Assembly (NCBI RefSeq): GCF_900129225.1
Contig: NZ_FQUG01000014.1
Location: 1 to 35,615, forward strand
DNA length: 35,615 bases
DNA from: Schwartzia succinivorans DSM 10502
Lineage (GTDB): Bacteria; Bacillota; Negativicutes; Selenomonadales; Selenomonadaceae
Direction of reading: 5' to 3'
Part shown: piece by piece, positions 8,912 to 35,397 of the stretch
Layout: every line of letters starts with the position of its first letter
Position numbering within the stretch: position 1 is the first letter of the stretch
Made by a program: the position numbers and the translations under genes
Notes under the pieces: model-generated
What the model saw: the letters and a program-made list of their open reading frames with translations, nothing else
The model's database searches: none
Told to the model about the DNA's origin: nothing

Positions 8912-8921
8912 ATGATTACTG

Positions 8922-9808: not shown

Positions 9809-9887
9809 TATATACTTGTACATATATAAAAGTGATGTAATATTGTTAAAGTGTAATTTCTGTTAATCATATCTGGAAGGAGAAATT

Positions 9888-11147: not shown

Positions 11148-11159
11148 TTATTGTTTTCA

Positions 11160-11199
11160 AAGCCTTTCTGTAGTACCTTTTTAGGCTACAGAAGGGCTT
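11160..11199 (+). terminator. Terminator after malic enzyme
   Basis: AAGCC-t-TTCTGTAG pairs with CTACAGAA-g-GGCTT (about 13 bp with one mismatch), followed by TTCTTG. Confidence 0.75.
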
Positions 11200-11207
11200 T
11201 TCTTGTG

Positions 11208-11460: not shown

Positions 11461-11485
11461 ACTTAGGGACGGTGAAAAGGTTATT

Positions 11486-11893: not shown

Positions 11894-12677
11894 TAATAAG
11901 GATTCGACATTTGATAAAGATAATTTCTCTGCCATGGCAGACGATAAGACACAGTTTATGCCTGCTGTCCGGGAACCTCAAAGCTCATTTCGTGAACTTC
12001 CGCAGCAGAAACAGCCATTGAACGGTAATAAAAAACCTTCGAACGATAACAAAACACCCCGATGGAAGAAATGGGTTATGGTTATCGTATTATTTTTGTT
12101 TTCTGTAATAAGCAGTTTTTTCTTGTTTGGATATTTTAATGACCGCCAACAGATAAGCGAAAATGAACAGCTGCGGCAGATACAGTCAATGCGCGAGCAG
12201 GAAGCTGACATTAAGAAGAAAAAAGAGGAACTGAACAGAGAAAAAGAAAATCTTGAAATCGAAAAAAAGGCATTGGAGCAGCGTAAAAAACAGCTGGAAG
12301 CCGAAGCCGCAGATGCCCAAAAAAGAAATGATGAAATAAAAAAGAAAAAGGATAATGCCTCAGCGATAGATAAGGTATGGGATAAGGTAAGCGGAAAGGA
12401 AAAGAAACGTCAGGAAGAGCAAAAAGAAAACACATCGAATTATGATAAAGCAAAAAATGAATTAAAAGATGTAGAGAATGCTCTGCGCCAGTCGGCAGAA
12501 ATCATTCATGAGGTAAACGAAAAGGTCGAAAGGCTGCAGGAAATGCAGGAACGCGTGGAAAAAATACAGAATGAAGCAACAGAGCTGTATGAGAACAACG
12601 CCGGTATAATTTCCAAAGCACTGTATTATTTCAAGGAAATGACAAAAATTTTTGAGAGCTTTTCATCAACAAATTAA
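11886..12677 (+). CDS. Single-pass membrane protein with long coiled coil
   Basis: I do not recognise the family. The 263-residue protein has a polar N-terminal cytosolic segment of about 60 residues, one membrane helix (WVMVIVLFLFSVISSFFLF, about residues 62-80) and a long heptad-rich region of Lys, Glu and Gln from about 95 to 245. ATG 11886 is chosen because it overlaps the preceding gene; the in-frame ATG at 11832 lies well inside that gene. GGAAGG upstream is a plausible ribosome site. It probably spans the membrane with an extracytoplasmic coiled coil, perhaps a scaffold. Confidence 0.75.
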   Translation: MDNNKDSTFDKDNFSAMADDKTQFMPAVREPQSSFRELPQQKQPLNGNKKPSNDNKTPRWKKWVMVIVLFLFSVISSFFLFGYFNDRQQISENEQLRQIQSMREQEADIKKKKEELNREKENLEIEKKALEQRKKQLEAEAADAQKRNDEIKKKKDNASAIDKVWDKVSGKEKKRQEEQKENTSNYDKAKNELKDVENALRQSAEIIHEVNEKVERLQEMQERVEKIQNEATELYENNAGIISKALYYFKEMTKIFESFSSTN

Positions 12678-12698
12678 ATTCATACAGGGGGATTCAAA

Positions 12699-13649
12699 GT
12701 GAAAAAAATAGCTGTATTATTGTTGTTTGTTACATTATTGATTGCCGGATGCGGAGCTTCAAACTCCGAAAAGAAAGCCGAAACACCATCGCAGAGCAAG
12801 AAGCCTATTGTTATCGGTTTGATGCCGGATACGGATTCAATCCCGTTCATTATCGCTGAGAAAAACGGATACTTTAAGGAAGAAGGCGTTGAAGTTACGC
12901 TGATGCCTTTTAAAAGTGCTATGGACAGAGATGCTGCTATGCAGAGCGGAAACTTAGACGGTGCAGTGTCTGATCTTCTGGCAGTAGCATTTGCAAAATC
13001 CGGAGGATTTGATGTGTGCGTTACTTCCATGACAGACGGAAACTACCGTCTTGTTGCAGGTAAATCAGTTGACCTGGCGAATGGAGTCGGCACGCTCAAA
13101 GGCAAGGATGTCGCTGTATCGAAAAATACGATTATTGAGTATGTAACCGACCAGATTTTGGCAAAAAACAATATGTCTGATACAGATATAGAAAAGGTTG
13201 TTATTCCGCAGATCCCTCTTCGTCTTGAAATGCTGCAGAACGGAAAGCTCGCAGCGGCAACACTTCCTGAGCCTATGGCCAGCATTGCGATATTTCACGG
13301 CTGCAAATTTGTAACGGATTCCGCGGAATTGGGAATCAATCCGGGTGTTATGATGTTTACGAAGGCTGCTGTAAAGGATAAAAACAGCGAAATTGCGGCG
13401 GTTTACCGTGCATATAACAAGGCAGTAGATTATTTGGCATCCACAGACCGTGAAAAATACATTGACTTCATTATTGAGAAAAACGGCTTCCCTTCAGAAG
13501 CGAAGAGTGCTTTGAAGCTACCGTCTTACCACAAGGCAGCGCTGCCTGAGGAAAAAGATATTACTGAATGTATGGAGTGGCTTAACAGCAAGAAACTTGT
13601 TTCAGACAAATATTCCTATCAGGATTTAGTCGTTAAGGGACTTTTTTAA
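12699..13649 (+). CDS. ABC importer substrate-binding lipoprotein (SsuA/NMT1-like)
   Basis: A 316-residue lipoprotein: the signal MKKIAVLLLFVTLLIAGC has a lipobox LIAGC. The mature part resembles NMT1/SsuA/TauA binding proteins (IGLMPDTDSIPFIIAEKNGYFKEEGVEV, LDGAVSDLLAV, LPEPMASIA). The start is GTG 12699, 7 nt after AGGGGG. The ATPase begins directly after its stop. Substrate candidates in this family are sulfonates, pyrimidine precursors of thiamine and bicarbonate; no riboswitch was found to decide. Confidence 0.88.
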   Translation: MKKIAVLLLFVTLLIAGCGASNSEKKAETPSQSKKPIVIGLMPDTDSIPFIIAEKNGYFKEEGVEVTLMPFKSAMDRDAAMQSGNLDGAVSDLLAVAFAKSGGFDVCVTSMTDGNYRLVAGKSVDLANGVGTLKGKDVAVSKNTIIEYVTDQILAKNNMSDTDIEKVVIPQIPLRLEMLQNGKLAAATLPEPMASIAIFHGCKFVTDSAELGINPGVMMFTKAAVKDKNSEIAAVYRAYNKAVDYLASTDREKYIDFIIEKNGFPSEAKSALKLPSYHKAALPEEKDITECMEWLNSKKLVSDKYSYQDLVVKGLF

Positions 13650-21450: not shown

Positions 21451-21485
21451 AAACTTCCGATAAGTATAAATTATCGGAAGTTTTT
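21451..21485 (+). terminator. Terminator formed at the left attachment site
   Basis: AAACTTCCGATAA (21451-21463) and TTATCGGAAGTTT (21471-21483) form a perfect 13-bp stem with a 7-nt loop and a T run (21481-21485). The Ts belong to the island side, so the terminator arises on integration. Confidence 0.75.
21464..21481 (+). repeat. attL core (18-bp direct repeat)
   Basis: GTATAAATTATCGGAAGT is identical to 34744-34761. The 7-bp GTATAAA is flanked by 11-bp inverted arms ACTTCCGATAA and TTATCGGAAGT, the usual layout of a tyrosine recombinase crossover site. Confidence 0.85.
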
Positions 21486-21499: not shown

Positions 21500-22843
21500 A
21501 TATTCTTTCGCAAATTCTATTTTCAGCCATCTGTTGCCTAGTTACCTTGTGGCATCAAAATTATCGATTTGGTGTTGAAATTCCAGTTCAAATAAGTGAT
21601 TCATGTTTAAATATCGTTTAGAACCCCAGTCTGATGCTGCTACATGGCGCAACCGAGCACAGACCAACATCAGCGCACTCTGCCCATCGGGGAAAGCTCC
21701 AATTGCTCTTGTACGGCGTTTAATTTCTCTGTTGACGCGTTCTATCGTGTTATTTGTTCGAATACGATTCCAGTGTTCAGTTGGATAATCCATGTATGTC
21801 AGCGTCTCTTCGATACTGTCTTCCACTTTCTTTGCGGCCGCCGGAAGTTTCATATCACGAAGTTGCTGTACTACTGAATTCGCCTTCTCGCGAGCCGATT
21901 TCTTGCTTTCTTGGGCGTGAATTGCCTTCAACATCATTGAAACAGTGCGCATTTTTGTTCTTGGGATAACAGTGAAAACGTTTCTGTAGAAATGCACTGT
22001 ACATCTCTGGTATCTCGCTTCAGGGAAAACCTCAGGGATGCTTTCCAGCATGCCGAGACATTTATCGCCGATAATTAGACGGACTCCTTTCAATCCGCGA
22101 CTTTTCAAACCGGAGAAGAAGTTTTTCCAGCTTTCGTGGTCTTCTTTCATGCCTTCGGCAGCACCAATGATTTCACGATATCCTTCACTATTTACACCGA
22201 TAGCTATAAGGACTGATACATTCTGTATTTCCCCGCCCCAACTGCGTTTTAGGTAAACACCATCTACATAGACGTAAGGATATTCCACGGTAAGCTGTCT
22301 GGAGCGCCATTCATCAATATGCGTATATGCTTTCTTATTGAGGTTGCTTATAGTACCCGGTAAAACTTTACTGCCCCAAAGTGCTTCTGTTATGTCTTCA
22401 ACACGACGCACCGAAACACCAGCTAAATACATTTCAATCAGTGCCTCTTCAACAGAACACTCCCGACGTTTGTAACGCTCAATAATTGCTGTCTCAAACT
22501 GAATTCCCTTAAGCTTTGGAACCTTAAGCTTGACGTCTCCGGATGTAGTAGAAAAATTTCTTTCATAATGACCGGACCGATATCCTTTCCTGTTACCGGA
22601 ACGCTCGTATTTATCTGCTTTTACAAGTTCATCAGCTTCATAGTCAAGCAGAGCATTGAGCGTTTCTTCTACGCTGTTTAGAACCAAATCTCTAAGATTA
22701 TTCTTTATGAGATCTTCATTGAGCTGTATAATGTTACCAGACATAGCTATTGCCTCCGCGTATGTTTTGTGTGGTAACTTAATTTTACCGATGGCAATAG
22801 ACTATGTCTATTTCTTTATGAAATGGAATTTGCGAAAAATATT
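21500..22843 (-). mobile_element. IS256-family insertion sequence
   Basis: The transposase gene is flanked by imperfect inverted repeats: CTTTCGCAAATTCTATTT at 21505-21522 and its counterpart at 22821-22838 (16 of 18 matching). The AT-rich outer few bases do not allow exact ends or the target duplication to be fixed. The left end is about 20 bp from attL. The right end interrupts a short coding sequence of the peptide cluster. Confidence 0.8.
21542..22744 (-). CDS. IS256-family transposase
   Basis: Full-length 400-residue DDE transposase. The first Asp is in VYVDGVYLKRSWGG, the second in LIIGDKCLGMLESIPEVFPEARYQRCTVHF region (GDKCLGM), and the Glu in NNTIERVNREIKRRTRAIGAFP, all family signatures. 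The frame is intact, so the element may still move. It is codon- and GC-richer than the adjoining peptide-cluster genes. Confidence 0.93.
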   Translation of the reverse strand: MSGNIIQLNEDLIKNNLRDLVLNSVEETLNALLDYEADELVKADKYERSGNRKGYRSGHYERNFSTTSGDVKLKVPKLKGIQFETAIIERYKRRECSVEEALIEMYLAGVSVRRVEDITEALWGSKVLPGTISNLNKKAYTHIDEWRSRQLTVEYPYVYVDGVYLKRSWGGEIQNVSVLIAIGVNSEGYREIIGAAEGMKEDHESWKNFFSGLKSRGLKGVRLIIGDKCLGMLESIPEVFPEARYQRCTVHFYRNVFTVIPRTKMRTVSMMLKAIHAQESKKSAREKANSVVQQLRDMKLPAAAKKVEDSIEETLTYMDYPTEHWNRIRTNNTIERVNREIKRRTRAIGAFPDGQSALMLVCARLRHVAASDWGSKRYLNMNHLFELEFQHQIDNFDATR

Positions 22844-22942
22844 ATACGTCATCGAAAAATCTAACCCTAAATATTTTTCTACGAACGCATGTAAATTTTC
22901 TTCATATTCCAACATGACATTTAAAAGATATTTCAAACTCAT
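22808..22942 (-). pseudogene. Start of a disrupted gene downstream of the peptide gene
   Basis: ATG 22942 is 8 nt after GGGAGG, which lies inside the 3' arm of the preceding hairpin. It encodes MSLKYLLNVMLEYEENLHAF and about 12 more residues, then runs into the IS256 right end near 22845 and stops at 22808 inside the element. About 31 native residues remain, too few to name a family. The rest is not found on the other side of the IS, where only about 20 bp separate it from attL, so the 3' part has been deleted. Confidence 0.55.
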
Positions 22943-22981
22943 AAAAAAAGCCTCCCTTATCGCATAGGACAAAGGGAGGCT
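22943..22981 (-). terminator. Terminator or attenuator after the precursor peptide
   Basis: Leftward, AGCCTCCCTT (22981-22972) pairs with AAGGGAGGCT (22958-22949) and is followed by seven Ts. The 3' arm also holds the ribosome site of the next start codon (22942), so it may both end most transcripts and sequester that site. Confidence 0.85.
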
Positions 22982-23013
22982 CATCGACTGGCCAGCCAAT
23001 AATTATTAAAACA

Positions 23014-23109
23014 TTACTGTGTCTTATAAGTATTAGTTGTACAGCAGGTTCCGCATACTACTACTGCATTGATAACCTTTACAGCAGACTTCTTGTATGT
23101 CTTCTTCAT
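23014..23109 (-). CDS. Cys/Thr-rich 31-residue peptide, likely RiPP precursor
   Basis: A 31-residue peptide with an excellent ribosome site (AAGGAGG, 8 nt before ATG 23109). The N-terminal half is basic and looks like a leader (MKKTYKKSAVKVINA). The C-terminal half, VVVCGTCCTTNTYKTQ, holds three Cys and four Thr and is the probable modified core. It lies 53 bp after the radical SAM gene and before a strong terminator, the usual position of a highly expressed precursor. Short Cys-rich precursors of the clostridial Clo7bot/CLI_3235 sort are the nearest remembered comparison, but I see no firm match. Thioether or other Cys-based crosslinks are inferred from context only. Confidence 0.75.
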   Translation of the reverse strand: MKKTYKKSAVKVINAVVVCGTCCTTNTYKTQ

Positions 23110-23162
23110 GTTGCGTTCCTCCTTATCCCTTAGATTATTATATTTAAAGAAATATAATTAGC

Positions 23163-24494
23163 TTATAAACATGCTCTGTCACATACGGCTTTAAACATCT
23201 TTCCGTATTCACACGTGATATTGTCAATATGTTCATCATCACCAGTTAATGTATAACTATGTGCTGGACATGGCTCACAATAATGGAATGCCTCACATTT
23301 AGAACACTTTTCATTTACCTTTGACGTAACTTCTCTCCAATGACGAATCTCATCTGATTGTCCCCATATATCATCTAAATCAGATTCTAAAAATGACCCA
23401 CATTTTTTACGAAAAGCATTACAAATCACAACATCCAAATCATATGTCACTGTGATGCTTCTAAAACTAGTAGCGCAGTATCTATCAGGAATTATTCCTT
23501 CTTTATCTTTACTTCGTTTTATAGCTCCTTCTAATAATTTCAATTTATCTGATGTTATATACTCATAAAGCTTATCAGCGCTGAATGTATTCAAAGACAC
23601 TGTGTCTTTAGTTGAATCAATTGCCGGAATAATCTTAAAATTATATCCTGCTGGTATATCTAACATTTTGCATAAATTATTCACAGCATATACCTGATTG
23701 GAATTAACATCAAAAATAGATACACTTGCTCGAACAATAAAACCTTCTGATTTCAATCGCTTAATTGCGGAAATTGTTTTTTTATAGCTTCCAACGCGTT
23801 TTGTAATACTTTCATGTATACAAGCATCATCACTATAAAGAGATACAAAAATCATCTTGACCGTACATTTCTTAAGTGCCTCAACGATTTCATCATTAAT
23901 CAATGTTGCATTGGTCTGTAAAGTTAATACAAATCCATATTTTCCTACCAATTCAATAAATTTTAGAATATCTGGATGCATAAGAGGCTCTGAACCTGCA
24001 AATACAACATGTAGTGTTCCTAGCGCCTTTAATTGCTGCAAAGCTTTCTCAAAATTTTCAACATTCCAGAGATTTTCCGATTCCTGTGATCTATAACAAT
24101 GAACGCACTCTAAATTACACCTATCTGTAATTTCTATATTTGCTGTAAAAGGAACACATCGTTCAGTCATTAAGTCAAATACATAATTTTCAGTCTCATC
24201 ATACTTATCTGCATCAGTATTTGCTTGATGCATTTGCGTTTCCATCTTCAGTATAGAATCCAATTGAAAAGCAAATTCTCTATAATCATTAGCGACCGTA
24301 TCATAATCGACATCATACATTTCCATGATTCTATGAATTATATACTCAGCTTCTTCATTCTCTTTCATCATAATAGAAAACATATCTGCAAAAACATCCT
24401 CAAATAAAACATATACATTTTCTATCTTGTCATATAAAACAACCAAATCTTCATAGCATCTATATAGATACTTTGCTTCAATTTCTCGCTTCAT
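23163..24494 (-). CDS. Radical SAM/SPASM peptide maturase with PqqD-like domain
   Basis: 443 residues. Positions 15-80 (VFADMFSIMMKENEEAEYII..YDVDYDTVANDY) look like a PqqD-type winged-helix RiPP recognition element. The radical SAM core follows with the 4Fe-4S motif Cys126-x3-Cys130-x2-Cys133 (TDRCNLECVHCYRS) and the GSEPLMHPDI glycine-rich motif. The C-terminal SPASM region has Cys at about 340, 358, 365, 397, 400, 406, 409 and 428, enough for two auxiliary clusters. Such enzymes form thioether or carbon-carbon bonds in ribosomal peptides. The peptide at 23014-23109 is its likely substrate. It is transcribed from its own consensus promoter; the ribosome site is weak. Confidence 0.9.
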   Translation of the reverse strand: MKREIEAKYLYRCYEDLVVLYDKIENVYVLFEDVFADMFSIMMKENEEAEYIIHRIMEMYDVDYDTVANDYREFAFQLDSILKMETQMHQANTDADKYDETENYVFDLMTERCVPFTANIEITDRCNLECVHCYRSQESENLWNVENFEKALQQLKALGTLHVVFAGSEPLMHPDILKFIELVGKYGFVLTLQTNATLINDEIVEALKKCTVKMIFVSLYSDDACIHESITKRVGSYKKTISAIKRLKSEGFIVRASVSIFDVNSNQVYAVNNLCKMLDIPAGYNFKIIPAIDSTKDTVSLNTFSADKLYEYITSDKLKLLEGAIKRSKDKEGIIPDRYCATSFRSITVTYDLDVVICNAFRKKCGSFLESDLDDIWGQSDEIRHWREVTSKVNEKCSKCEAFHYCEPCPAHSYTLTGDDEHIDNITCEYGKMFKAVCDRACL

Positions 24495-24530
24495 CTAGTC
24501 AAACTTCTTTCGATTAAAAATTAATCCATT

Positions 24531-24566
24531 GACCAGATTGCTTGCAAAGCCCGATAAATACTGGTC
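24531..24566. other. Inverted repeat in the 5' leader of the radical SAM transcript
   Basis: GACCAG and CTGGTC flank about 24 nt between the promoter and the start codon at 24494. The leader is about 98 nt. It could be a small regulatory hairpin; evidence is weak. Confidence 0.35.
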
Positions 24567-24598
24567 TTCTTATCAGTTTATTTTTTTAATTTTCTGTA

Positions 24599-24627
24599 AT
24601 TATATAATCTACATACAGTGTTGTCAA
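24599..24627 (-). promoter_or_regulatory. Consensus promoter for radical SAM enzyme and peptide
   Basis: On the minus strand, TTGACA (24627-24622), exactly 17 bp, TATAAT (24604-24599). A perfect sigma-A promoter, placed after the SNF2 terminator, so enzyme and peptide form a separate strong transcript. Confidence 0.9.
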
Positions 24628-24653
24628 GGTAATATGAATCTATACAAAATAAA

Positions 24654-24692
24654 AAATCGGCTAAAAATGTTTAGAACATTTTTAACCGATTT
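24654..24692 (-). terminator. Terminator after the SNF2 gene
   Basis: A 17-bp stem with one mismatch (AAATCGG-x-TAAAAATGTT and complement) around a 3-nt loop, followed leftward by a T run. It starts 4 bp after the SNF2 stop. Confidence 0.85.
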
Positions 24693-24695
24693 CCA

Positions 24696-27236
24696 CTATA
24701 GCAAATTCAATAATTCTTCTGGTGATAAATCACCAATATCATTTATGTTAGCGAATATCGCTTTACCCATTTCATCTTTTCTATTTTTTAAATTTTCTAT
24801 TTTTTCTTCTACACTATTCTTTACTATCAATCTATAAACAATAACATCTTTTTTCTGACCAATACGATATATACGATCCTCTGCTTGACGTTCAACAGCT
24901 GGATTCCACCACGGATCACAAATAATAACCCTTCTAGCCTCGGTTAGATTTAATCCAAACCCACCGGCTTTTAAGCTAATAAGAAAGACTTTCTTACTTT
25001 CATTTGAAAATGCATCAATTTCCTTTTGACGCTTATTTGTGTGGCCATCGATATAACAGTAATCAATCCCATCTTCTTCAAGTCTATTCTCAATAAGTGC
25101 TAAAAAACGTGTAAATTGGCTAAATATCACTATTTTCTCGCCACTTTCATTAGTTACATTAATTAAATCAAGCACAGTATCTAACTTAATGGACTCCTCA
25201 CACTTTTTATAATTAGTGTCATTAATCAAGCATGGATGGCAACAAATCTCTCTTAAAAATGTTAAGCCGTTCAACATCTGTAATTTTTGATTCTCTAATT
25301 CCCCTTTTAAAGACAAATCCTTTTTTATCTTTATCAACATTGCCTTGTAAAGCTTTTCCTGTTCACTATCCATAATACAATAAATATTTTCTGTCTTTTT
25401 TGAAGGTAGCTTTCCAAGCACTTGTTCTTTTGTTCTTCTTAATAAAAACGGCGACAATTTTCGTCCTAGTTGAGCCATTTCTGTTTTACCATTTATATAA
25501 TTATCTAAAAAAGTATTATATTTCCCCAATAAACCAGGTGTTGTTATATCCATTATGCTCCATAGTTCTAAAACATTATTTTCATATGGTGTTCCTGTAG
25601 CAGCGAATGTCGTCCTACCTAAAGACATTTTTTTTACTATCCTTCTAGTTTTCGAATCAATATTCTTTACCTTCTGTGCTTCATCTAGTATAACTAATTC
25701 AAATCCAAATGAACCTAATTCCTTAAAGTCACTCAATAATATGCCATAGGTTGTGATACATACATCATACTCGTTATTTAAGCTCCGATTATCACCGTAG
25801 TAGAGCATTAATGAATATGAACGTTGAAAATATTTCTCATATTCATTCACCCAATTCCCTAGAATCGTTTTAGGAACTATAATAAGCGTCTTTTTAAACT
25901 GACTCTTTATTTCTTCGTCAGCTAGTAATGTTAATATCTGTACAGTCTTTCCAAGGCCCATATCATCGGCCAAGCATCCTCCCATATGATTCAATGCCAA
26001 TTTTTTCATCCATACAACACCATCTTTTTGATAATCAAATAGCACAGTTTCAATATTAGCAGGTATACTGAGATGAACATCTCCACTAAATATATCACTT
26101 AAATTATTCTTATCGAACTCATTTTCAGAAACGTCCTCCACTATCTTCGCAAAATTTTCAGCTGTTTTTTGAATCTTTCCATCGTCCGATACTATAGCTA
26201 ATAAATCCGTTATATTTTCGGGTACTAATAATGCTTTCTTTGTCCCCTCGGCAAATATACCATTATCTCCAATCAATTCAGACAATTGTATACTTTCATC
26301 ATCAAACTTAATGCTACCATCTATCGAAAACCATCTTTCTCCTGATTCAAAATGAATATTTCTAAATTTGTCATCTCTAACTTCTACTTGCTTATCATTC
26401 AAAAAAACAATGAACCCCAATTCAATCATTTTTCGAACAGCTATATAGGACTCATTATTCGGAATCAAATACGTATTTGTAGAAATCATTTCAAACTGTT
26501 TAAAAAGTTTCTGTATCTTTAATTCACTGTTGTAATCCCTATAATATTCAGTTCCATTATGAAGTACTGTCTTATCTGACAAGATTTTTACTGGTTTGCC
26601 ATCATAAAGCATTTTAGGCTCTGCTATCAACGAATTATTCTTTTCTCTTAACAGCACCTCAATGTCTACATTCTCACAAATTTTATTTCTATCTTCTTTT
26701 CTAATATTGTTAAAAAGTTCCATTAATGAAATCTCTGCTTTTGGTCTTTTAGAGAACACCACTTGCTTTAATACTTTTATATCTATCGACGCGTCAATAA
26801 GATACATATTGTTTTTTACAATAATGCACGTATCATTCACAAATGGAATTATCTTATGTTTTTCCTCAATTCGGATTACTTCTGAATCAGCTATAACGAA
26901 TAATCTGTTTTTTTCCAAAGAAACCCTCTTTATTGTTAGATTTTGGCAATTATCTACTATTACAATTTTATGATTATTTTCATACCCTAATATCATAAAA
27001 TGATTCCAACTATTTTTTGCATTTGATATATCAAACGTAACAGTATTATTACCAATTCTATATATACATGACTCTTCGTGTTTCTTAATAAAGTCTGTTA
27101 ATTCCTTATCACTTGTTTTTTTATATTTTCCAGATACATATCCTTTTTGTGTCCTAGTAAGTTCACCTATATAAGTAGAACACACCAGCCTGCCTTGCTT
27201 AGCTGAACTCTTCTCATCTATTAATAACAAAATCAC
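24696..27236 (-). CDS. SNF2-family DEAD/DEAH helicase in the peptide cluster
   Basis: 846 residues. The C-terminal half is a complete SNF2 motor: Q-motif LFDYQKDGVVWM (about 399), Walker A DDMGLGKT (424-431), DEAQ (518-521), ATGTP (546-550), SLKAGGFGLNLTEA and RIYRIGQKKDV. Residues 1-390 are unlike known catalytic domains but include RWFSIDGSIKFDDESIQLSEL, reminiscent of the region found in front of bacterial SNF2 motors. The start is GTG 27236, overlapping the upstream stop by 4 nt (GTGA), so it is coupled to the SGNH/CitC-like gene. Role in peptide maturation is unknown; it could act in DNA-based regulation, element stability or defence. Confidence 0.88.
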   Translation of the reverse strand: MILLLIDEKSSAKQGRLVCSTYIGELTRTQKGYVSGKYKKTSDKELTDFIKKHEESCIYRIGNNTVTFDISNAKNSWNHFMILGYENNHKIVIVDNCQNLTIKRVSLEKNRLFVIADSEVIRIEEKHKIIPFVNDTCIIVKNNMYLIDASIDIKVLKQVVFSKRPKAEISLMELFNNIRKEDRNKICENVDIEVLLREKNNSLIAEPKMLYDGKPVKILSDKTVLHNGTEYYRDYNSELKIQKLFKQFEMISTNTYLIPNNESYIAVRKMIELGFIVFLNDKQVEVRDDKFRNIHFESGERWFSIDGSIKFDDESIQLSELIGDNGIFAEGTKKALLVPENITDLLAIVSDDGKIQKTAENFAKIVEDVSENEFDKNNLSDIFSGDVHLSIPANIETVLFDYQKDGVVWMKKLALNHMGGCLADDMGLGKTVQILTLLADEEIKSQFKKTLIIVPKTILGNWVNEYEKYFQRSYSLMLYYGDNRSLNNEYDVCITTYGILLSDFKELGSFGFELVILDEAQKVKNIDSKTRRIVKKMSLGRTTFAATGTPYENNVLELWSIMDITTPGLLGKYNTFLDNYINGKTEMAQLGRKLSPFLLRRTKEQVLGKLPSKKTENIYCIMDSEQEKLYKAMLIKIKKDLSLKGELENQKLQMLNGLTFLREICCHPCLINDTNYKKCEESIKLDTVLDLINVTNESGEKIVIFSQFTRFLALIENRLEEDGIDYCYIDGHTNKRQKEIDAFSNESKKVFLISLKAGGFGLNLTEARRVIICDPWWNPAVERQAEDRIYRIGQKKDVIVYRLIVKNSVEEKIENLKNRKDEMGKAIFANINDIGDLSPEELLNLL

Positions 27237-29197
27237 TCTCTTCCCACCTCCAATCTATTAATTCTTTCTATAAGCATTTCCCTACTATTTACAAGATAAT
27301 TATAAGTCGCATCAGGAACTAGCTCTCTTATTTTATCCAAATCGTTATCTTTTAAAGCTTTTCTAACTCTACTAGCACTTATGAATTCACCATCCGCTTT
27401 TAGTCGTTCAATCAAAACAAACTCTAGATTCTCATGTTCAAATCTTTCTTTAATTTGACGATTATATTCTCTTGTCACTCTACAGTATGGTTCTTCACCT
27501 GCTATACGCATTCTCACATTTAAAGCTGGCATAACAAACTCTGTAAATATACGAATATCACGACTTGCATCCACCGATAATAATTGATTTTTTTCCTTTT
27601 TAAAGTATTCTGGCAAAGTTACTGTTGAAACTACATATTCACTACTTGGAATTATGATTAAATTCTCTAAAAGCTCAGTATTCTGTTGTACAAGCATTAG
27701 CCGATCTTCAAAAGGTATGACCGTTTCACTTTCCTGTACAACAAGAACAAACAGATAATCAACTAATTTCAACGCCTGTTCTAATATATATAAATGTCCT
27801 TTTGTGAATGGATTTGCATTCATTACTATAACGGCACCTTTACCAAATTTATCAGCAGCGTTCTTCCTTAACATGGATATAAAACTCTGAAATTTATCAT
27901 TGTCAAAAAAATTGGAATTCAAATCCCCTCTTCGCTCACAGATTATCTTTTCATAATTCTCCTTAACGCTTTCTATCTTTTCAATTCTATTGGTTTTAGG
28001 ATGCTCAATTTCATTAATATATCCTGCTAGTTCAGCTGCAATCAATTGATTACCAGCAGGTCCAAAATGAATATAGTCTATAAATATTTCTCTCCCCATG
28101 TAATATCTTAACGTAGCTGCAATATCACAACATATTATCCCCTTCTGCTGAAGATCCACCCTAACCTTTTCCCAAGTAGCATCTAATGAATAATACTTAC
28201 TATTAGCATCTCCTATTTTTTGCAGTTCATCGTATAAACAAAATCTCCATTCATTTTCAGAAATAACAGCCTTATCCCCACAATCAGGAAGAATACAAAC
28301 TATCAAATGTGCTTGTAATAAATCACACATCTCCTTAATTTCTACAATTTCATGGCAAACCGCCTCATCAACTATACTTGGTGCATATTTCTCTGATGAT
28401 TTTATAAATCCATTATTTATTACTACAATATCATTCTTATGAATGTTTGCACTTTTTATTTGTAACCTAAGATCATATATCGATGTCCCATGTACACCAT
28501 AATTCATGCAGCGATATTTAGTTAACTTACTAACAATACTCGCTAATGTATAATCATCCTCTACATATAATCCATAAAAACGAGAATCACCAAAAAAATG
28601 AATTGTAACATCTCTATCACCATTAATATACTGCTCGTTTGTATATCTTATCGAATCTATAATATTGACATATTCACTTTTATAATCTGCATTAACTAAC
28701 TGATTGTTTAGATAATACATATCCGGTAAATAACTTACCTTTTTCTGATATTCTTCTGTATAATACGAGATGCAAGTGTATGCCTCACCTATTTCTCTAT
28801 CTATATTTTCAGTTAATTCATCAATAAGGACCTGCTGTTCTTTTATTTCATCAAAAATATTGATAGTAATCCCTTCTATTCCCGAAATACGATATTTATC
28901 ATCTGAAACGATTAACAAATCCTTATCTATAGTCATTTTTATTCTTTTAGTTCGACTCCAAATTCCTCTGGCATCATAATCCACTGTTCCTGTGACATAT
29001 ATATACTTGTTTACATCTAGGAGAAAAAGCCACGCCAGTATCATTTTCACACAATTATCCTCTGAATTGACTAGAACTCTCCCTTTATATTTTTTTAAAA
29101 AAACACTTAATTTACTCATTCTATTCTTCACCCTAATTTTTCTTAATAAACCTATGTCAACAACATGCCCAAATGCATAGAATGTATTATTTATCAC
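27233..29197 (-). CDS. SGNH hydrolase fused to citrate lyase ligase-like nucleotidyltransferase
   Basis: 654 residues with three parts. Residues 1-190 are of unknown type. Residues 197-395 form an SGNH hydrolase: block I FFGDSRFYG (Ser205), block III INNG (about 260) and block V DYIHFGPAG (Asp374, His377). Residues 455-650 match the C-terminal ligase domain of citrate lyase ligase: NANPFTKGHLYILEQA with the nucleotide-binding TKGH, PFEDRL, GEEPYCRVTREYN and FISASRVR. CitC adenylates acetate to load a CoA-like prosthetic group; here an acyl or adenylyl transfer during peptide maturation is inferred. Start uncertain: GTG 29197 has no ribosome site, ATG 29119 follows AGGGTG by 9 nt. Confidence 0.85.
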   Translation of the reverse strand: MINNTFYAFGHVVDIGLLRKIRVKNRMSKLSVFLKKYKGRVLVNSEDNCVKMILAWLFLLDVNKYIYVTGTVDYDARGIWSRTKRIKMTIDKDLLIVSDDKYRISGIEGITINIFDEIKEQQVLIDELTENIDREIGEAYTCISYYTEEYQKKVSYLPDMYYLNNQLVNADYKSEYVNIIDSIRYTNEQYINGDRDVTIHFFGDSRFYGLYVEDDYTLASIVSKLTKYRCMNYGVHGTSIYDLRLQIKSANIHKNDIVVINNGFIKSSEKYAPSIVDEAVCHEIVEIKEMCDLLQAHLIVCILPDCGDKAVISENEWRFCLYDELQKIGDANSKYYSLDATWEKVRVDLQQKGIICCDIAATLRYYMGREIFIDYIHFGPAGNQLIAAELAGYINEIEHPKTNRIEKIESVKENYEKIICERRGDLNSNFFDNDKFQSFISMLRKNAADKFGKGAVIVMNANPFTKGHLYILEQALKLVDYLFVLVVQESETVIPFEDRLMLVQQNTELLENLIIIPSSEYVVSTVTLPEYFKKEKNQLLSVDASRDIRIFTEFVMPALNVRMRIAGEEPYCRVTREYNRQIKERFEHENLEFVLIERLKADGEFISASRVRKALKDNDLDKIRELVPDATYNYLVNSREMLIERINRLEVGRE

Positions 29198-29455
29198 AAT
29201 ATTTTATTTTTAAATAATGGGATTAGCATACGATTTAGTAGTAATGCTTATATTTGCTAATGCTGTCTGTGTAATACCTTCTCCATGACATTTTGTATTC
29301 TTCAATCTCAATATTGTTTTAAATCACTTCTATAAACCTCTTTTGTTGCACAATTAAGATAACTAATTTTACCACATTTCTAACTTTACAAGCAGCTCGA
29401 TTACACTTCAAAGTACCTATTTTAGTTCATATCAAATTAAACCTATAATAAAGAA
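29198..29455. other. AT-rich intergenic stretch upstream of the peptide cluster
   Basis: No gene seen. It contains an imperfect palindrome AGCAT..ATGCT at 29226-29249, upstream of the SGNH/CitC-like gene, which might be an operator. No good promoter was found for that gene. Confidence 0.4.
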
Positions 29456-29943: not shown

Positions 29944-30252
29944 CTATATTCTAGCTAGCATTTCCATTATATATCCAATGCCTTCAGTTCCCCAAATGGT
30001 CAAAGCCTGAGGAACTACTGCAACAATGATACCCACAATAAGTCCTTGCCATCCAAGAGATGCAGATCCGTTAATAAATGAACAGATACCACCAATCACA
30101 AAGAAAACTCCCAGCACCCAGCATACAAGATTTGCCAGGCCATCAACAAAACCAATTGCAAGCATCAGCAATGTAAGAACTGCCTGTACCGGCAATAGTG
30201 CAATTCTAAGGATAACTCTTAAAACTGTTCCAATACCATACAATACTGTCAT
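29944..30252 (-). CDS. Small multi-pass membrane protein, CD1845-like (conjugative element type)
   Basis: 102 residues with about three hydrophobic helices (VLRVILRIALLPVQAVLTLLML; WVLGVFFVIGGICSFI; GLIVGIIVAVVPQAL). It resembles in size and pattern the CD1845-family membrane proteins seen in Firmicute conjugative elements. ATG 30252 shares its first base with the end of the HTH gene and is preceded by GGGGGAA, so the two genes are coupled. Function unknown; its presence supports an integrative-conjugative origin for the island. Confidence 0.65.
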   Translation of the reverse strand: MTVLYGIGTVLRVILRIALLPVQAVLTLLMLAIGFVDGLANLVCWVLGVFFVIGGICSFINGSASLGWQGLIVGIIVAVVPQALTIWGTEGIGYIMEMLARI

Positions 30253-30524
30253 TATAGGTTCCCCCTTTCTTTCTCCATCTGAACCTTATAGGCAATCAAA
30301 CGAAGTACATATTCCGGCATTGCCCTACGACCAAGTTCCCACTCCTGCATAGTTCTATATGGAATACCAAGCCAGGCAGAAAAATCTTTTCTGTTCATTC
30401 CTGACTGCGCTCTAATCATCTTAAACGCATATGCCATCTTCCGGCGTACAGCATCAGCGTCTGTTTTATCTATTTTTTCCACTTCAATATCTATACCTTC
30501 AATGCTATATATTTCCTTATCCAT
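30252..30524 (-). CDS. HTH regulator, small (XRE-like)
   Basis: 90 residues from ATG 30524 (in-frame ATG 30587 gives 111). The HTH region is MIRAQSGMNRKDFSAWLGIPYRTMQEWELGRRAMP near the C-terminus. The shorter start is chosen because ATG 30587 lies inside a promoter: TTGATA, 17 bp, TATAGT at 30601-30573 places transcription start downstream of 30587. A 23-bp palindrome overlaps that promoter, suggesting that this or the neighbouring regulator represses it. Such small HTH proteins precede CD1845-like genes in conjugative elements. Confidence 0.7.
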   Translation of the reverse strand: MDKEIYSIEGIDIEVEKIDKTDADAVRRKMAYAFKMIRAQSGMNRKDFSAWLGIPYRTMQEWELGRRAMPEYVLRLIAYKVQMEKERGNL

Positions 30525-30572
30525 GGCACTACCTACTATATCAATGTAGTCAATGCGTGTATTATTATCTTT

Positions 30573-30601
30573 ACTATATGTAGTCATTGACTACATATCA
30601 A
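30573..30601 (-). promoter_or_regulatory. Promoter with palindromic operator of the HTH operon
   Basis: Minus-strand TTGATA (30601-30596), 17 bp, TATAGT (30578-30573). The palindrome ATATGTAGTCA-T-TGACTACATAT (30576-30598) covers the spacer and edges of both boxes. A third half-site GTAGTCA lies at 30547-30553. Repressor binding here would block RNA polymerase. Confidence 0.75.
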
Positions 30602-30666: not shown

Positions 30667-31002
30667 TTAAAGCAATCCTTCAACTTTACGCTTTATTACC
30701 CAATAAACATCTTCAATATCACAATCAGATAATTTCTCGAGTAATTTAAAGAAAGAACTGTACTTAGCTGCAAGCCTCTGCTCTTCACCGGCTTCTGTAA
30801 ACTCCAGGAACAATAATTCCCTTACATCAACTTCATAGATACGAGAAAACTGTGCCAATTCATCCGCAGATATACTTCTCTTACCTGCTTCCATCTCACT
30901 AATTGCTCTCTTTGCAACATTCATAAGATTAGCAGCCGCATCCTGGGATAATCCTTTCTTCACACGTGCTTCTTTAAGCTTTTTACCCGTAAATTCAGAC
31001 AT
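30667..31002 (-). CDS. XRE-family transcriptional regulator
   Basis: 111 residues with an N-terminal Cro/C1 HTH (GKKLKEARVKKGLSQDAAANLMNVAKRAISEMEAGKRSISADELAQF) and a C-terminal helical tail, which may dimerise. ATG 31002 follows AGGAGG by 6 nt. Inverted TTCCGA/TCGGAA elements sit directly upstream, consistent with autoregulation. Likely the island's master regulator, but targets are unknown. Confidence 0.88.
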   Translation of the reverse strand: MSEFTGKKLKEARVKKGLSQDAAANLMNVAKRAISEMEAGKRSISADELAQFSRIYEVDVRELLFLEFTEAGEEQRLAAKYSSFFKLLEKLSDCDIEDVYWVIKRKVEGLL

Positions 31003-31093: not shown

Positions 31094-31343
31094 TTTGTCG
31101 AATGTAGTCAGCAAAAAATGTATGAAGTACTCCGGCAGCTTAATTGAATTTTATTTTTGTGTAAAAAAATATAGGGGCTGTCGCATGAAGGAAAAAATCT
31201 TCATGGACAGCTCCTTTTTTCAGCTCAATATTAAATTTTGATAACCACACAGACATTTTCATGTAAAAATTGAACACAAAAAGGGCGCAAGAATATAACC
31301 GGCACTTTGTCCGTTACATGCATGCGCCCTTTTTGTTTGCTCG

Positions 31344-32916
31344 TTAAGCCGCCACAGTCACAGGGAACAAATAGCGCACTTCCTTGCCTGCTTGTATCTT
31401 GTGGTGCAGGCAGATCATGTTGTGCGCCATGGCCAAAAGCATTGCTTCCACCAAGATGTTCTTTCGCCCGCGACTCAGGAACCGGCGGAAGGAAAGGTTT
31501 CCCTTCGTCTGCGCGAACGCCCCCCTCGGCCTGTATGCTCCGGTTCACACGGAGCTCTATGCCCTCCGGCGAGGTGATCCGCGCCAAGGCTTTCTCCCTC
31601 TGCTCCTGAAATTCCTTCGCCACCTCGAATCGCTTGCTCTGTTCCTCCAGAGGCGTTTTCGACGTTCCCGCACGGATGCATTCCGCTTTTCTTGGGCAGC
31701 CTTTGCAGTCCACGCATCCGTACTGCGTCTTCTCGCTGACGTAGCCGGTCTTGGTCTTGCATCTGCGTGTCCCTGTCACTGTCAGTTTCTTACCGTTCGC
31801 GCAGGTGTAGCTGTCTTCCTCTGGGGCGTACGCCATGTTTTCCCTGCGGCCGATGTCCTTCTTCACGCTCCGTTTCTTGCTCGTCTCGTAGTTCGCGGGC
31901 TTGACGTAGGCTTCCTGACCGCGCCCTTCCAGCCACAGGTAGTTTTCCTCGCTTTCGTAGCCTGCATCCGCCACGATGCGCGGGTATTTCTTTCCCGTAT
32001 GCGCCTCGAAGTCTTCAAGGAACGGGATGAGCGTCGTCGTGTCGCTCGGCTGCGGCCCTTCCGTCACCCATACGACGTACTGCGCGTCCACGCCGAACTG
32101 GATGTTGTAGGCGGGCTTGAGCTGCCCGTTCTTCATGGCGTCTTCTTTCATCCGCATGAAGGTCGCGTCCCTGTCCGTCTTGGAGTAGCTGTTCCGGTTC
32201 CCTGCGATGAAGAGTTTCTTCGTGTAGTCCTTGATGCGCCGGATCGCCTCGTCCAGTTTTTTCGTCAGTCTCTGCAGGGACGTCTTCCGTTTCCAGCTCC
32301 CGTGCACGAATTCGATGCCCATGCTTTTTTGGTACGCCTTCAGCCTGCGGCGCAGCCGCTTCATGTGGCGGAGCCTGATCCCCTCCGGAAAGTCCAGCCG
32401 GACATCGAAGTCTTCCGCAGCTTCGGCGAACAGCTCCGGGATTTTTTCCATGAGCTTTCCCATCTGCTTCGTCACGGATTTCTTCCAGACGAAGGTGTAC
32501 TTGTTGGCGCAGGATTCGATCTTGGTCCCGTCGATGAAGATCTGCTCGCCCGAGAGTTCGCTCATCCCGTCCAGTGAAAGGCTCATCCCCGCGAACAGGG
32601 TTTTCATGCAGGGGGCGAGATGGAGCTGCTTGAATCTTGCGATGGCGGAATGGTCGGGGGCGGGCTTGCCTTCCAGAAGGTACATGAAGTTGATGTCCCG
32701 CTTGCAGGCGGACTCGATCTTGCGCGAGCTCCGGATGCCGTTCATGTTCGCGTAGACGGCAATGGCCAGCATCTGCCTGGGCGACGCCTTCTATTTCTCG
32801 ATGCGGGAATAGGTCTTGTGAAGCTCCCTTAAGTCCAGTCCGCCTATGAAATGGCGAAGCAGGCGGACGGAGTCGTTCGCCGGAATGCGGCATTCGATAT
32901 TGAGGGGCAAAGACAT
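31344..32916 (-). pseudogene. IS1182-family transposase with amber stop and frameshift
   Basis: From ATG 32916 the frame reads MSLPLNIECRIPANDSVRLL, as in the family N-terminus, until an in-frame TAG at 32793-32791 after YSRIEK; it resumes with KASPRQMLAIAVYANMNGIRSSRKIE. The DDE core follows (IFIDGTKIESCANKYTFVW; VADAGYESEENYLWL). A second lesion is an extra G in a run of six (31520-31525 as C), which shifts the frame. In the next frame the normal C-terminus FRRFLSRGRKNILVEAMLLA continues to TAA at 31346-31344. Two lesions make an inactive pseudogene more likely than programmed recoding. Confidence 0.88.
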
Positions 32917-33560: not shown

Positions 33561-34714
33561 ATGTATTTACGAGAAAAAATGGAAGATGGTATTTCACTAC
33601 AACGATCCTTACGATGGATGGCACTCCAAAGAGAGTGGAAAGGATTGGTGGTAATACAAAAACCGAAGCAAAGAAAGCTTGTATTAATTTCATTAAGAAG
33701 ACTGACCGGTTCGGTCGTATGAAATTGAAGGAAAATATCACTGTTAAGCAGTTCTCTACGCTTTGGATGACGGACTACGTTGAGAATAACTTAAAGCCGA
33801 ATACAATTGATTCATATAATATGATGCTGGAAAAGCATATATTGCCGGATCTAGGAAGCAAGCAGTTGTATAAAGTAACCAGTATAGAGCTGCAGCGGTT
33901 CCTGAATAACAAAAAGAACGCAGGGTATTCCAAGTCCACGGTATCCCATATGGCTGTGCTGCTTCGAGAAATATTTAAGGCAGCCGTCCATCCGTATGAT
34001 TATCTGGATAAGAGTCCGGCGATATATTTAAGAGTTCCAAAGCATGACGAAATATCTCCGGAAAAATATATTTTTTCAGAGGCTGATATTGAGGAAATCT
34101 TTGAGCGCTTCCCTATCGGACATCAATTTTATATCCCGATTCGAGTAGCATACTATACCGGGATGCGGTTAGGTGAGATTCTAGCGCTCACAAAAGATAA
34201 GGTAAGTATTGAAGACCAACGAATTTATATATCATCGATACTATATGATAAGAAAGGTATTCCGATAGTCGGTAACACACCAAAATCGAAAACCAGTGTA
34301 AGAACGATAGTTTTTGGTGAAGCTCTTGTTGCTTGCCTGAAAAAGCACTACGCTTGGCAAGCCAAAAACAAATTGCAATACGGTGAATACTACATAAACA
34401 ACGATTTTGTATGCACCCGTGAAGACGGAAAAAATATGACTTCGAATGATATGCGGTACTTTAATATGTATTGTAGAGAGAACTTCGGTTCAGGAGCCTC
34501 CTTCCACTCGCTTAGGTATACGCACGCTACAAGGCTGCGTGAAAATGGCTGCGAACTGGAATTTGTATCAAATCGTTTGGGACACGCCAACGTGGAAATT
34601 ACATCAGCGATCTACTTTCATGTAACACAAAAAGAAAACACTGCAATGCTCTCTATTTTGGATGATACATTCAAATCCGAGCGGAAAAGCGGAAAAATGA
34701 AAATAAATCGCTGA
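33561..34714 (+). pseudogene. int: Tyrosine integrase with early frameshift
   Basis: The C-terminal part is a full phage/Tn916-type integrase: SAM-like core-binding domain (STLWMTDYVENNLKPNTIDSY) and the catalytic residues Arg in TGMRLGE, Lys in TPKSKTSVRT, His and Arg in HSLRYTHATRL, His in LGHANVE and Tyr in IYFHV. The true start seems to be ATG 33561. MYLREK is followed after the A run 33574-33579 by a shift to the frame giving NGRWYFTTTILTMDGTPKRVE, which needs seven As instead of six. The intact frame alone begins at ATG 33614 without a good ribosome site; a shortened protein lacking the arm-binding domain could be made. The gene ends 30 bp before attR and reads towards lexA. Confidence 0.82.
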
Positions 34715-34743
34715 AACCCACTAATATTAAGGATTTTAGGTAC

Positions 34744-34761
34744 GTATAAATTATCGGAAGT
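34744..34761 (+). repeat. attR core (18-bp direct repeat)
   Basis: Identical to 21464-21481. Only the right inverted arm is kept; the left neighbour TTTTAGGTAC is island-derived. It ends 4 bp before the lexA ribosome site. Confidence 0.85.
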
Positions 34762-34779: not shown

Positions 34780-35397
34780 ATGGCCCGGCACAATCAAACT
34801 TCCGCACAACGTCGAGAAAGCATTTACGCATTTATTAAACAGTTTTTGAAAGATCGCGGCTACCCACCATCTGTCCGCGAAATCGGTCAGGCTGTCGGAT
34901 TGAAATCCAGTTCCACGGTTCATGCATATCTTGACCAGATGGAAGATCATGGTATGATACGTCGTGATCCTACCAAACCCAGAGCAATTGACCTTATGGA
35001 AGATAACCCGTGGAGCAACACAGTACTCGTTCCTTTGATTGGTACTGTAGCTGCCGGTATTCCTATCTCTGCTGAGGAGAATATTGAAGAAACCTTCGCC
35101 CTTCCCACTAACCTTTTAGGCACCAAGGATGATACCTTTATGCTTAGAGTAAAAGGCGAAAGTATGATTAATATTGGTATTTTTGACGGCGATTATGTAA
35201 TCGTTCGCCAGCAGAATACCGCAAGAGACGGTCAGGTTGTCGTCGCATTGGTTAATCAGGAGGATGCAACAGTTAAACGTTACTTCAAAGAGAAGGATTG
35301 CATTAAACTGGTTCCTGAAAATGATAATATGGAGCCGTTTTACGAAAAAGATGTCCAGGTTCTTGGAATAGTTATCGGTGTATACAGACAAATGTAA
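34780..35397 (+). CDS. lexA: LexA repressor
   Basis: SOS-response repressor and self-cleaving peptidase. The N-terminal winged HTH is SVREIGQAVGLKSSSTVHAYLDQMEDHGMIRRD. The cleavage site Ala-Gly is in GTVAAGIPI, the catalytic Ser in KGESMINIGIFDGD and the Lys in EDATVKRYF. 205 residues from ATG 34780, 8 nt after AAGGAG (34766-34771); GTG 34771 overlaps the ribosome site. The gene directly abuts attR, so its original promoter is now 13.3 kb away; current expression probably comes from read-through of the integrase or a weak island promoter. No known LexA box is visible nearby. Confidence 0.95.
   Translation: MARHNQTSAQRRESIYAFIKQFLKDRGYPPSVREIGQAVGLKSSSTVHAYLDQMEDHGMIRRDPTKPRAIDLMEDNPWSNTVLVPLIGTVAAGIPISAEENIEETFALPTNLLGTKDDTFMLRVKGESMINIGIFDGDYVIVRQQNTARDGQVVVALVNQEDATVKRYFKEKDCIKLVPENDNMEPFYEKDVQVLGIVIGVYRQM

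Follow-up and report, generated by a model that had tools for sequence, protein, structure and literature searches.

We analysed a 35,615-nucleotide stretch of DNA from Schwartzia succinivorans DSM 10502, hereafter referred to as the window. Four minus-strand genes located between 22.8 and 29.2 kb encode a fusion of an SGNH-like with a citrate-lyase-ligase-like domain, a SNF2 translocase, a radical SAM/SPASM maturase and a short Cys-containing peptide (Table 1). An earlier note on this DNA had described these four genes, including the GTGA overlap between two of them, and both the open reading frames and the Pfam domains agree with that description. At this overlap, the GTG start codon of the SNF2 gene and the stop codon of the fusion gene share 4 nt, resulting in translational coupling. 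The peptide gene follows the maturase gene after 53 nt and has the ribosome-binding site AAGGAGG. Because an intrinsic terminator (fold z -5.9) and a perfect promoter lie between the two gene pairs, the fusion-SNF2 and maturase-peptide genes are two separate transcription units and not one operon. The region behind the peptide gene (22930-23010) likewise contains a terminator and has a fold z of -3.4. The single cluster at 22808-29197 proposed by the earlier note therefore contains the genes as stated, but it is made up of two units and its left end is an ORF running into an IS256 element. This ORF did not match any Pfam family and is possibly a gene cut by the IS256 insertion. A further ORF before the fusion gene (29210-29311) was considered as a second peptide gene and set aside; it has a TTG start and lacks a clear ribosome-binding site.

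All four genes reside on a 13.3-kb island inserted between yraN and lexA. It carries an integrase gene and is bordered by direct att repeats that are 95% identical, and the corresponding site of a congener (L198) is empty, with a single att copy and contiguous yraN and lexA genes. These features identify it as an integrative genomic island. Neither an exporter nor citrate lyase genes were recognised within it.

Table 1. Features of the island and its borders (positions in the window)
Feature	Position	Strand	Remarks
Left att repeat	21461..21481	+	direct repeat of 34741..34761
IS256-family element	21506..22837	-	terminal inverted repeats
IS256 transposase	21542-22744	-	NF033543 5.6e-106
ORF 3' of peptide gene	22808..22999	-	runs into IS256 end
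Terminator after peptide gene	22954..22975	-	
Precursor peptide MKKTYKKSAVKVINAVVVCGTCCTTNTYKTQ	23014..23109	-	31 aa
Radical SAM/SPASM maturase	23163..24494	-	443 aa
Promoter TTGACA-17-TATAAT of maturase-peptide unit	24599..24627	-	12/12 consensus positions
Intrinsic terminator between SNF2 and maturase	24652..24694	-	20-pair stem + T run
SNF2 translocase	24696..27236	-	846 aa, GTG start
SGNH-like + citrate-lyase-ligase-like fusion	27233..29197	-	654 aa
102-aa ORF	29944-30252	-	hydrophobic by eye
111-aa ORF	30252-30587	-	weak HTH-like matches below cut-off
HTH regulator	30667..31002	-	HTH_3 2.5e-12
DDE transposase	31231..32772	-	PF05598, PF13751, PF01609
Tyrosine integrase of island	33614..34714	+	PF00589 2.4e-21
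Right att repeat	34741..34761	+	directly upstream of lexA
lexA	34780-35397		LexA domains matched

The maturase contains the Pfam domains Radical_SAM (1.9e-22) and SPASM (3.2e-06), both above cut-off, and its CxxxCxxC motif and the cysteines of the SPASM region are invariant in the maturase alignment (profile A1). Its N-terminus had been described as PqqD-like. The PqqD match itself is below cut-off (0.034), but the AF2 model of the protein (pLDDT 75.5) shows an RRE-like b3-a3 arrangement in this region. The fold as a whole is predicted to resemble those of CteB, SuiB and SkfB: a Foldseek search with the model returned 5why, 5v1s and 5wgg as best matches (5why and 5wgg being, we presume, CteB) and SkfB in ninth place, and the alignments to the CteB and SuiB structures cover approximately the full length, with TM values of about 0.5-0.6. 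SkfB is also the best solved relative of profile A1. The window maturase shares radical SAM and SPASM domains, a short adjoining Cys precursor and, in the predicted model, an RRE-like N-terminus with CteB, SkfB, AlbA and StsB, but it scores far below the respective models. The AlbA profile matched residues 41-428 with 96.5 of 850 bits, the StsB model reached 60.6 of 625 bits, and none of the best 25 of 65 NCBIfam models attained its cut-off, leaving the protein outside the AlbA, SkfB, StsB and SCIFF families. Moreover, the GGE motif reads GSE (FAGSEP), and neither NCBIfam nor Pfam contains a match for the precursor. Single-sequence scans of genome contigs and viral contigs did not reveal close relatives, and the best segments among the matches listed in the alignment scan of genome contigs had identities of 21-29%; overall, identity to the relatives found was 21-30%.

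In the maturase tree, the window protein is placed on a long branch (2.16), apart from the SNF2-coupled maturases described below and grouped with maturases of Y.KP-leader peptides (support 93/87, not starred), which represent the nearest lineage. The hosts of these KP-leader maturases include E. coli and Photobacterium plasmids, Lachnoanaerobaculum and Dysgonomonas. Peptides next to homologous maturases, which the earlier note had suggested aligning, were compared. Short Y.KP-leader Cys peptides adjoin related maturases at 24 of 30 loci by rule, against 2 of 21 in the radical SAM control set. The plasmid matches L048, L049 and L050 belong to different types and are not counted among the 30 loci; of the 80 loci listed in the alignment scan, 39 served neither as relatives nor as controls. 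The window peptide resembles the KP-leader peptides (best match L012, shuffle p 0.0055), although its leader reads YKKS instead of Y.KP. It is unlike the MYCFKSC peptides introduced below (p 0.65). Neither SNF2 nor fusion genes were detected at KP-type maturase loci (0/30 each; tblastn 1e-5, some flanks being short). Taken together, the domains, the predicted fold, the adjacent short Cys precursor and its leader support the proposed precursor-maturase pair, which stands isolated within a known type of system, the radical SAM RiPPs.

The SNF2 protein contains both motor domains (SNF2-rel, PF00176, 3.4e-61; Helicase_C, 3.7e-22) with the Walker A and B motifs DDMGLGKT and DEAQ. The helicase-domain tree unites it with the SNF2 proteins of three other loci, L177, L178 and L230, in a small and rare clade of short, stand-alone translocases supported by 99/99; long branches and unlike composition were flagged for several test rows of this tree. 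An N-terminal profile of these four members strongly matched only its own members, in 3 of 398 genomes of the phylum. No match was obtained in a plasmid search with the window SNF2 N-terminus, and single-sequence searches of viral contigs found relatives of neither the SNF2 protein nor the fusion.

L177 and L178 had been found with the N-terminus of the window SNF2 as query, and L230 turned up among plasmids when the L178 SNF2 served as query, being the sole record of 99 covered over at least 80%. The three loci come from distant hosts, and in each of them the gene immediately upstream of SNF2 encodes a radical SAM protein. A short MYCFKSC peptide is encoded upstream in two of them (MKEIKLTWVVKKVEDTSRVNAMYCFKSCSANQN in L177, MKKVTVSWKVKKVKNSARINTMYCFKSCERNQN in L178), and L230 contains Cys-rich LTWNV candidate ORFs downstream. 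A rumen viral contig, L065, shows the order M42 peptidase, MKEKFTISFNWETKEAGKTERIGAMYCFRNCDVNKN, maturase and SNF2; its SNF2 protein is unplaced in the tree and not matched by the SNF2 N-terminal profile. Overall, a radical SAM gene lies within 3 kb of the SNF2 gene at 5 of 5 test loci, three of which are independent (the window was the starting point, and L065 had been reached through its maturase), compared to none of the 36 pooled control loci (0/14 long SNF2s, 0/22 viral SNF2s). At one control locus, L333, the distance is 5.5 kb. L055 and L073, with a radical SAM match and SNF2-like matches about 3.6 and 6.5 kb apart, were left out of both member and control counts. For a Mycetohabitans match (H63), no SNF2 was listed within 5 kb.

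The partner-maturase profile found only its own two members in 289 genomes; these genomes therefore yielded no partner maturase that lacks SNF2. The first partner-maturase alignment matched nothing in viral contigs, and after L065 had been added its own contig was the only strong match, followed by 17 weaker ones (best 6e-13). The L177 and L065 maturases match Radical_SAM and Fer4_12, with Pfam SPASM unmatched; for the maturases of L178 and L065, StsB is the best-matching NCBIfam model. The window shares with these four loci a maturase within 3 kb of the SNF2 gene, but its gene order is reversed, its units are separate, and its maturase and peptide families differ. These data support a recurrent association between SNF2 and peptide maturases in unrelated hosts. 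We did not find a description of this pairing in the literature searched, in line with the earlier note, which knew of no described system combining a RiPP maturase with a SNF2 helicase.

The C-terminal nucleotidyltransferase domain of the fusion is shared with citrate lyase ligase CitC (Citrate_ly_lig 5.3e-60), but the window protein is fused to an SGNH-like domain (Lipase_GDSL_2 4.6e-4, below cut-off) and remains below the CitC equivalog cut-off (TIGR00124, 179 of 262.1 bits). CitC matches are common, occurring in 63 of 189 genomes of the family, the own genome included. The earlier note had inferred a RiPP pathway with an additional acyl or nucleotidyl step. In this reading all four gene products cooperate, and the fusion attaches such a group to the peptide or removes it. 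The overlap coupling to SNF2 is consistent with such a pathway, as is a related fusion (L190) that has a radical SAM/SPASM gene on one side and several GG-leader ORFs in a row on the other. However, a radical SAM gene was detected at only one of 50 related fusion loci, and SNF2 at none of them; the fusion is absent from the four other SNF2-maturase loci and from the 30 KP-type loci, and a search for co-occurrence of all four families found the complete set only in the window. We therefore consider a cooperation of all four genes very improbable. The fusion probably is a passenger, an independent family despite its coupling to SNF2 here.

What remains to be explained is the presence of the SNF2 gene. 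We tentatively favor, at close to but somewhat below even chances, a RiPP locus with SNF2 as a functional neighbor, most likely for immunity, and the fusion as probable passenger. The window SNF2 is seen as a functional neighbor because the three other members of its clade each directly follow a radical SAM maturase gene. The RRE-like N-terminus of the maturase would bind the leader MKKTYKKSAVK of the peptide, and its radical SAM and SPASM clusters would link at least one of the three cysteines in VVVCGTCCTTNTYKTQ by thioethers. The targets of SNF2 would then be DNA-bound and lie within the producer cell. Its most likely role would be immunity, achieved by stripping or remodeling a protein-DNA complex poisoned by the peptide; a role as regulator or defence partner appears less likely.

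Alternatively, the SNF2 gene could be a chance neighbor in mobile DNA. The RiPP locus and the SNF2-fusion operon would then be unrelated cargo of one island, SNF2 having arrived with another module, and maturase and peptide would make a thioether peptide on their own. This is a real possibility, somewhat behind the functional link. Within the window, terminator and promoter separate the two genes that are adjacent elsewhere; the maturase lineage and the peptide differ from the SNF2-coupled ones, SNF2 is absent from all 30 loci of the window maturase type, and transposases and an integrase are present in the island. But chance does not readily account for the three other clade members found, each of which is encoded immediately behind a radical SAM gene. 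An anti-phage or abortive conflict system, with the modified peptide as effector and SNF2 as the component that would scan or bind foreign DNA, seems improbable to us. It would fit the island setting and the four other loci, where no exporter was recognised directly beside peptide, maturase and SNF2 among the annotated neighbors. A survey of conflict systems mentions a radical SAM domain likely modifying a peptide effector (PMC7159879), and another survey lists the SWI2/SNF2 ATPase PF18766 among families that cluster in the vicinity of class II lanthipeptide loci (PMC12715929). These lanthipeptide loci resemble the window in having an SNF2-type ATPase near RiPP genes, but they concern another RiPP class and another ATPase family, listed as an anti-phage helicase, instead of a maturase-adjacent clade; PF18766 is not among the Pfam matches of the window SNF2, which matches PF00176. 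The defence models DpdE and ZorD do match this protein, but mainly over the motor domain that it also shares with DrmD and the pilus-regulating model NF053675; scores are far below the NCBIfam cut-offs, a nuclease domain is unmatched, and the island genes searched included no recognisable DISARM, Zorya or Dpd partner genes.

Extending the favored functional link beyond the window, one may envisage an undescribed RiPP class on islands, plasmids and viral contigs, which draws its maturases and precursors from two or more unrelated lineages, among them KP-like and MYCFKSC, has the SNF2 translocase as an obligatory maturase partner serving as immunity or delivery motor, and makes peptides acting intracellularly on DNA-bound machinery. 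We regard this generalization as rather doubtful. A RiPP locus is commonly taken to consist of a precursor, a maturase, a protease and an exporter. If a DNA motor is indeed a recurrent partner, this would suggest modified peptides that act within the producer cell on nucleic-acid machinery, or else conflict systems armed with peptides, and the motor would be a new marker for genome miners.

The window is a complete contig (C5) of the 2.66-Mb genome, and the ORF map bore out both the gene positions and the GTGA overlap of the fusion and SNF2 genes given in the earlier note. All four genes (fusion, SNF2, maturase, peptide) lie on the - strand. The SNF2 gene ends at a 20-pair terminator followed by a perfect consensus promoter, beyond which the maturase and peptide genes make up the second unit, closed by a terminator of its own. 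Judged from these signals, the SNF2 and maturase units look to be transcribed separately. A small ORF ending 12 nt ahead of the fusion start has a TTG start, lacks a clear ribosome-binding site and is probably due to chance.

Coordinates of the features discussed in the window and at other loci
Locus	Position	Feature	Remark
Window	27233-29197 (-)	SGNH/CitC-like fusion	
Window	24696-27236 (-)	SNF2	
Window	23163-24494 (-)	radical SAM/SPASM maturase	
Window	23985-23999 (-)	maturase residues 166-170	AGSEP at GGE/GGD position
Window	23014-23109 (-)	31-aa Cys peptide	
Window	29210-29311 (-)	ORF RLKNTKCHGEGITQTALANISITTKSYANPII	
Window	21461-21481, 34741-34761	21-bp direct repeat, 2 copies	95% identical
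L198	1124-2605	aligned segment	window 21481-20018
L198	481-1144	aligned segment	window 35404-34741
L211	3-495	integrase-like pieces	identity to window integrase 53% and 35%
L046	4809-4925	38-aa precursor MSYSKPTVLAKSSTYMAQCRPNSKPSGRPCNPPGPSGR	
L047	4807-4923	38-aa precursor MSYSKPTVLAKSSTYMAQCRPNSKPSGRPCNPPGPSGR	
L185 (G351)	10836-11189	acyl-carrier-protein-like ORF	by eye
L177 (G428)		peptide MKEIKLTWVVKKVEDTSRVNAMYCFKSCSANQN, radical SAM, SNF2, in this order	radical SAM-SNF2 gap 17 nt
L178 (G191)		M42 peptidase, peptide MKKVTVSWKVKKVKNSARINTMYCFKSCERNQN, radical SAM, SNF2, in this order	radical SAM-SNF2 gap 5 nt
L230		radical SAM, SNF2, methyltransferase	two Cys-rich LTWNV candidate ORFs downstream
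L065	8401-13244	M42 aminopeptidase, MYCFRNC peptide MKEKFTISFNWETKEAGKTERIGAMYCFRNCDVNKN, StsB-like maturase, SNF2, in this order	
L055	9974-16320	radical SAM, SNF2-like ORF	~3 kb apart
L190 (G122:C134)	6771-12957	radical SAM/SPASM, SGNH/CitC-type fusion, GG-leader ORF series, in this order	

The GC content is 0.312 over 23 to 30 kb versus 0.430 over the first 21 kb of the window. In a congener (G139, locus L198), yraN, a single copy of the repeat and lexA stand in series, and the two segments aligned with the window overlap by exactly 21 bp. The integrase gene ends 26 bases before the right repeat. Because of the direct repeats, the single-copy site between yraN and lexA in the congener and the integrase near the right repeat, we conclude that the four genes arrived on a 13.3-kb island. 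Since integrase-like pieces also lie ~1 kb upstream of lexA in another genome from this class (L211), in a region with stops in the one reading frame examined, the lexA site may be a hotspot for islands. The ORF 3' of the peptide gene extends into an IS256 inverted repeat, at which no target duplication was seen by eye; genes downstream of the peptide may therefore have been lost. At a related locus (L180), an ABC-exporter-like ORF, recognized by eye only, follows maturase and peptide.

We compared 30 maturase relatives of the window-like lineage (KP-type), hand-picked from several searches, with 21 control radical SAM loci taken from the matches listed. A precursor was defined as a short ORF within ~1 kb of the maturase with Y/F.K[P/S] near its start and at least two Cys. 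Such ORFs were found at 24 of the 30 relatives versus 2 of the 21 controls, so that the peptides sought in the earlier note beside homologous maturases are usually there. The match at L052 is a different ORF from its evident precursor, which reads KRP, and one control match (L109) resembles a genuine precursor. Cys peptides outside the rule occur at L008 and L044, and no conforming ORF was found at L053, L096, L111 and L161. The window peptide aligned with the L012 precursor (MKKTY.K.., CG.C; best score p 0.0055, mean score p 0.015, 2000 shuffles), and showed no likeness to the MYCFKSC peptides (best score p 0.65, mean score p 0.44). One precursor is identical on E. coli and Photobacterium plasmids (L046, L047), where it stands beside related maturases and adjoins recombinase genes; akin cores occur in Clostridiales, Bacteroidetes and Dysgonomonas loci, and the version at L095 has no NCBIfam match. 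At L185, where a related maturase is accompanied by two Cys peptides, the acyl-carrier-protein-like ORF comes directly after them. The window peptide-maturase pair is an isolated addition to the radical SAM RiPPs already known.

No close relative of the window maturase was found among the matches listed (best segments ~30% identical), and none of the 25 NCBIfam models listed reached its cut-off. Its AF2 model (19 sequences, pLDDT 75.5, pTM 0.77; residues 85-98 and 287-302 poor) starts with a short first helix, followed by the b-b-b-a-a-a order of an RRE. Foldseek ranked 5why/5wgg, which we take to be CteB structures, and SuiB at the top; SkfB came ninth and TigE tenth. The TM-scores lay between 0.5 and 0.6, and the rmsd values were large. 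Radical SAM enzymes usually carry a GGE/GGD motif; this reads AGSEP in the window maturase, and the GG is kept in the ten other rows of the alignment (A1). In the tree, the branch of the window maturase is very long and joins the KP-leader group (93/87, not starred). The SNF2-coupled partner maturases form their own group (100/100), and this topology places the window maturase outside their family.

The first 385 residues of the SNF2 protein gave no further match in the family's 189 genomes (the order search covered the same 189), none on plasmids, and two among 299 genomes of the phylum (L177, L178). With the L177 N-terminus, a Treponema saccharophilum plasmid (L230; SNF2 translated from a start earlier than annotated) was the sole match among 72,556 plasmid records, and the L178 N-terminus matched no phage record. 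Of 398 phylum genomes, a profile of the four N-termini (window, L177, L178, L230) matched three strongly, each of them one of its own members, and ten more weakly (best E in each 2.9e-5 to 7.3e-4; SNF2 frames of 1064-1119 aa). Neither the class of G428 (profile A5, 82 genomes) nor the family of G191 (A6, 17 genomes) held new members. The motor domains of the four form one clade (99/99) in a tree for which the program flags several of them as long-branched and deviating in composition. L065, an IMG/VR rumen contig filed as viral and originally found via the window-maturase alignment, has an SNF2 on a long unplaced branch, its N-terminus unmatched by the profile.

Searched with profiles for the two maturase types, 5/5 test loci had a radical SAM gene within 3 kb of SNF2, as did 0/14 long SNF2 loci and 0/22 viral SNF2 loci, counts in which a neighbour could be missed at some control loci because those stretches are short. 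One more viral locus without an SNF2 ORF lay outside the 22, and at L333, one of the long-SNF2 controls, a radical SAM gene stands 5.5 kb away. For the three test loci independent of the discovery route (L177, L178, L230), 3/3 versus 0/36 controls corresponds to ~1 in 9,000 by our own arithmetic. At E 1e-50, a partner-maturase profile (A10: L178, L177, L230, L065) matched no genome among 289 of the phylum other than those of its own members, G191 and G428; therefore no partner maturase without SNF2, and no new locus, was seen there. In viral contigs, that of L065 was the sole strong match. Pfam detected Radical_SAM and Fer4_12 in the L177 and L065 maturases and left SPASM unmatched; the alignment shows a conserved Cys-rich pattern at the C-terminus. 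A viral-collection contig (L055), left out of these counts, carries sugar-biosynthesis-like genes, by eye, between its radical SAM gene and SNF2-like ORF.

The set of four families proposed in the earlier note did not recur at the loci examined. CitC-like domains were matched in 63 of the 189 family genomes, host included. Of the 85 other places listed by that search, 50 loci were examined with flanks, some of them short; a radical SAM gene was detected by profile at one and SNF2 at none, and the fusion was absent from the four other SNF2-maturase loci. The exception, L190, with nine GG-leader ORFs by pattern (ELEQVAGG-type), is possibly a separate RiPP system with the fusion as tailoring enzyme. 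In the window, the fusion is probably a passenger.

Of the co-occurrence expected at window-type maturases, the Cys peptides were usually present; tblastn (1e-5) detected SNF2 and the fusion each at 0 of the 30 KP-type loci (the longer versions L179-L186 were used where available; several of the remaining loci span only 4-6 kb). Because the window maturase belongs to another lineage, the two units look separate and neither SNF2 nor the fusion was found at KP-type loci, the window may be a hybrid, SNF2 may be a partner to several maturase types, or the SNF2 and maturase units may be unrelated cargo.

Our literature search found no description of a radical SAM or RiPP system paired with SNF2 or a helicase in the accessible parts of the papers (PMC13289728 included), which agrees with the earlier note; as many subscription papers were beyond reach, this novelty is limited to the reach of the searches. 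In their accessible parts, PMC12715929, PMC10853773, PMC7641849, PMC7159879 and PMC11888242 treat radical SAM and SNF2 in unconnected contexts. The nearest precedents there are the SWI2/SNF2 ATPase family PF18766, listed as one of those that cluster close to class II lanthipeptide loci (PMC12715929), and a conflict system whose radical SAM domain is thought to modify a peptide effector (PMC7159879). The function of SNF2 at these loci is a matter of inference. The recurring peptide-maturase-SNF2 arrangement is the new element here, and the window is a divergent instance or a near neighbour of it.
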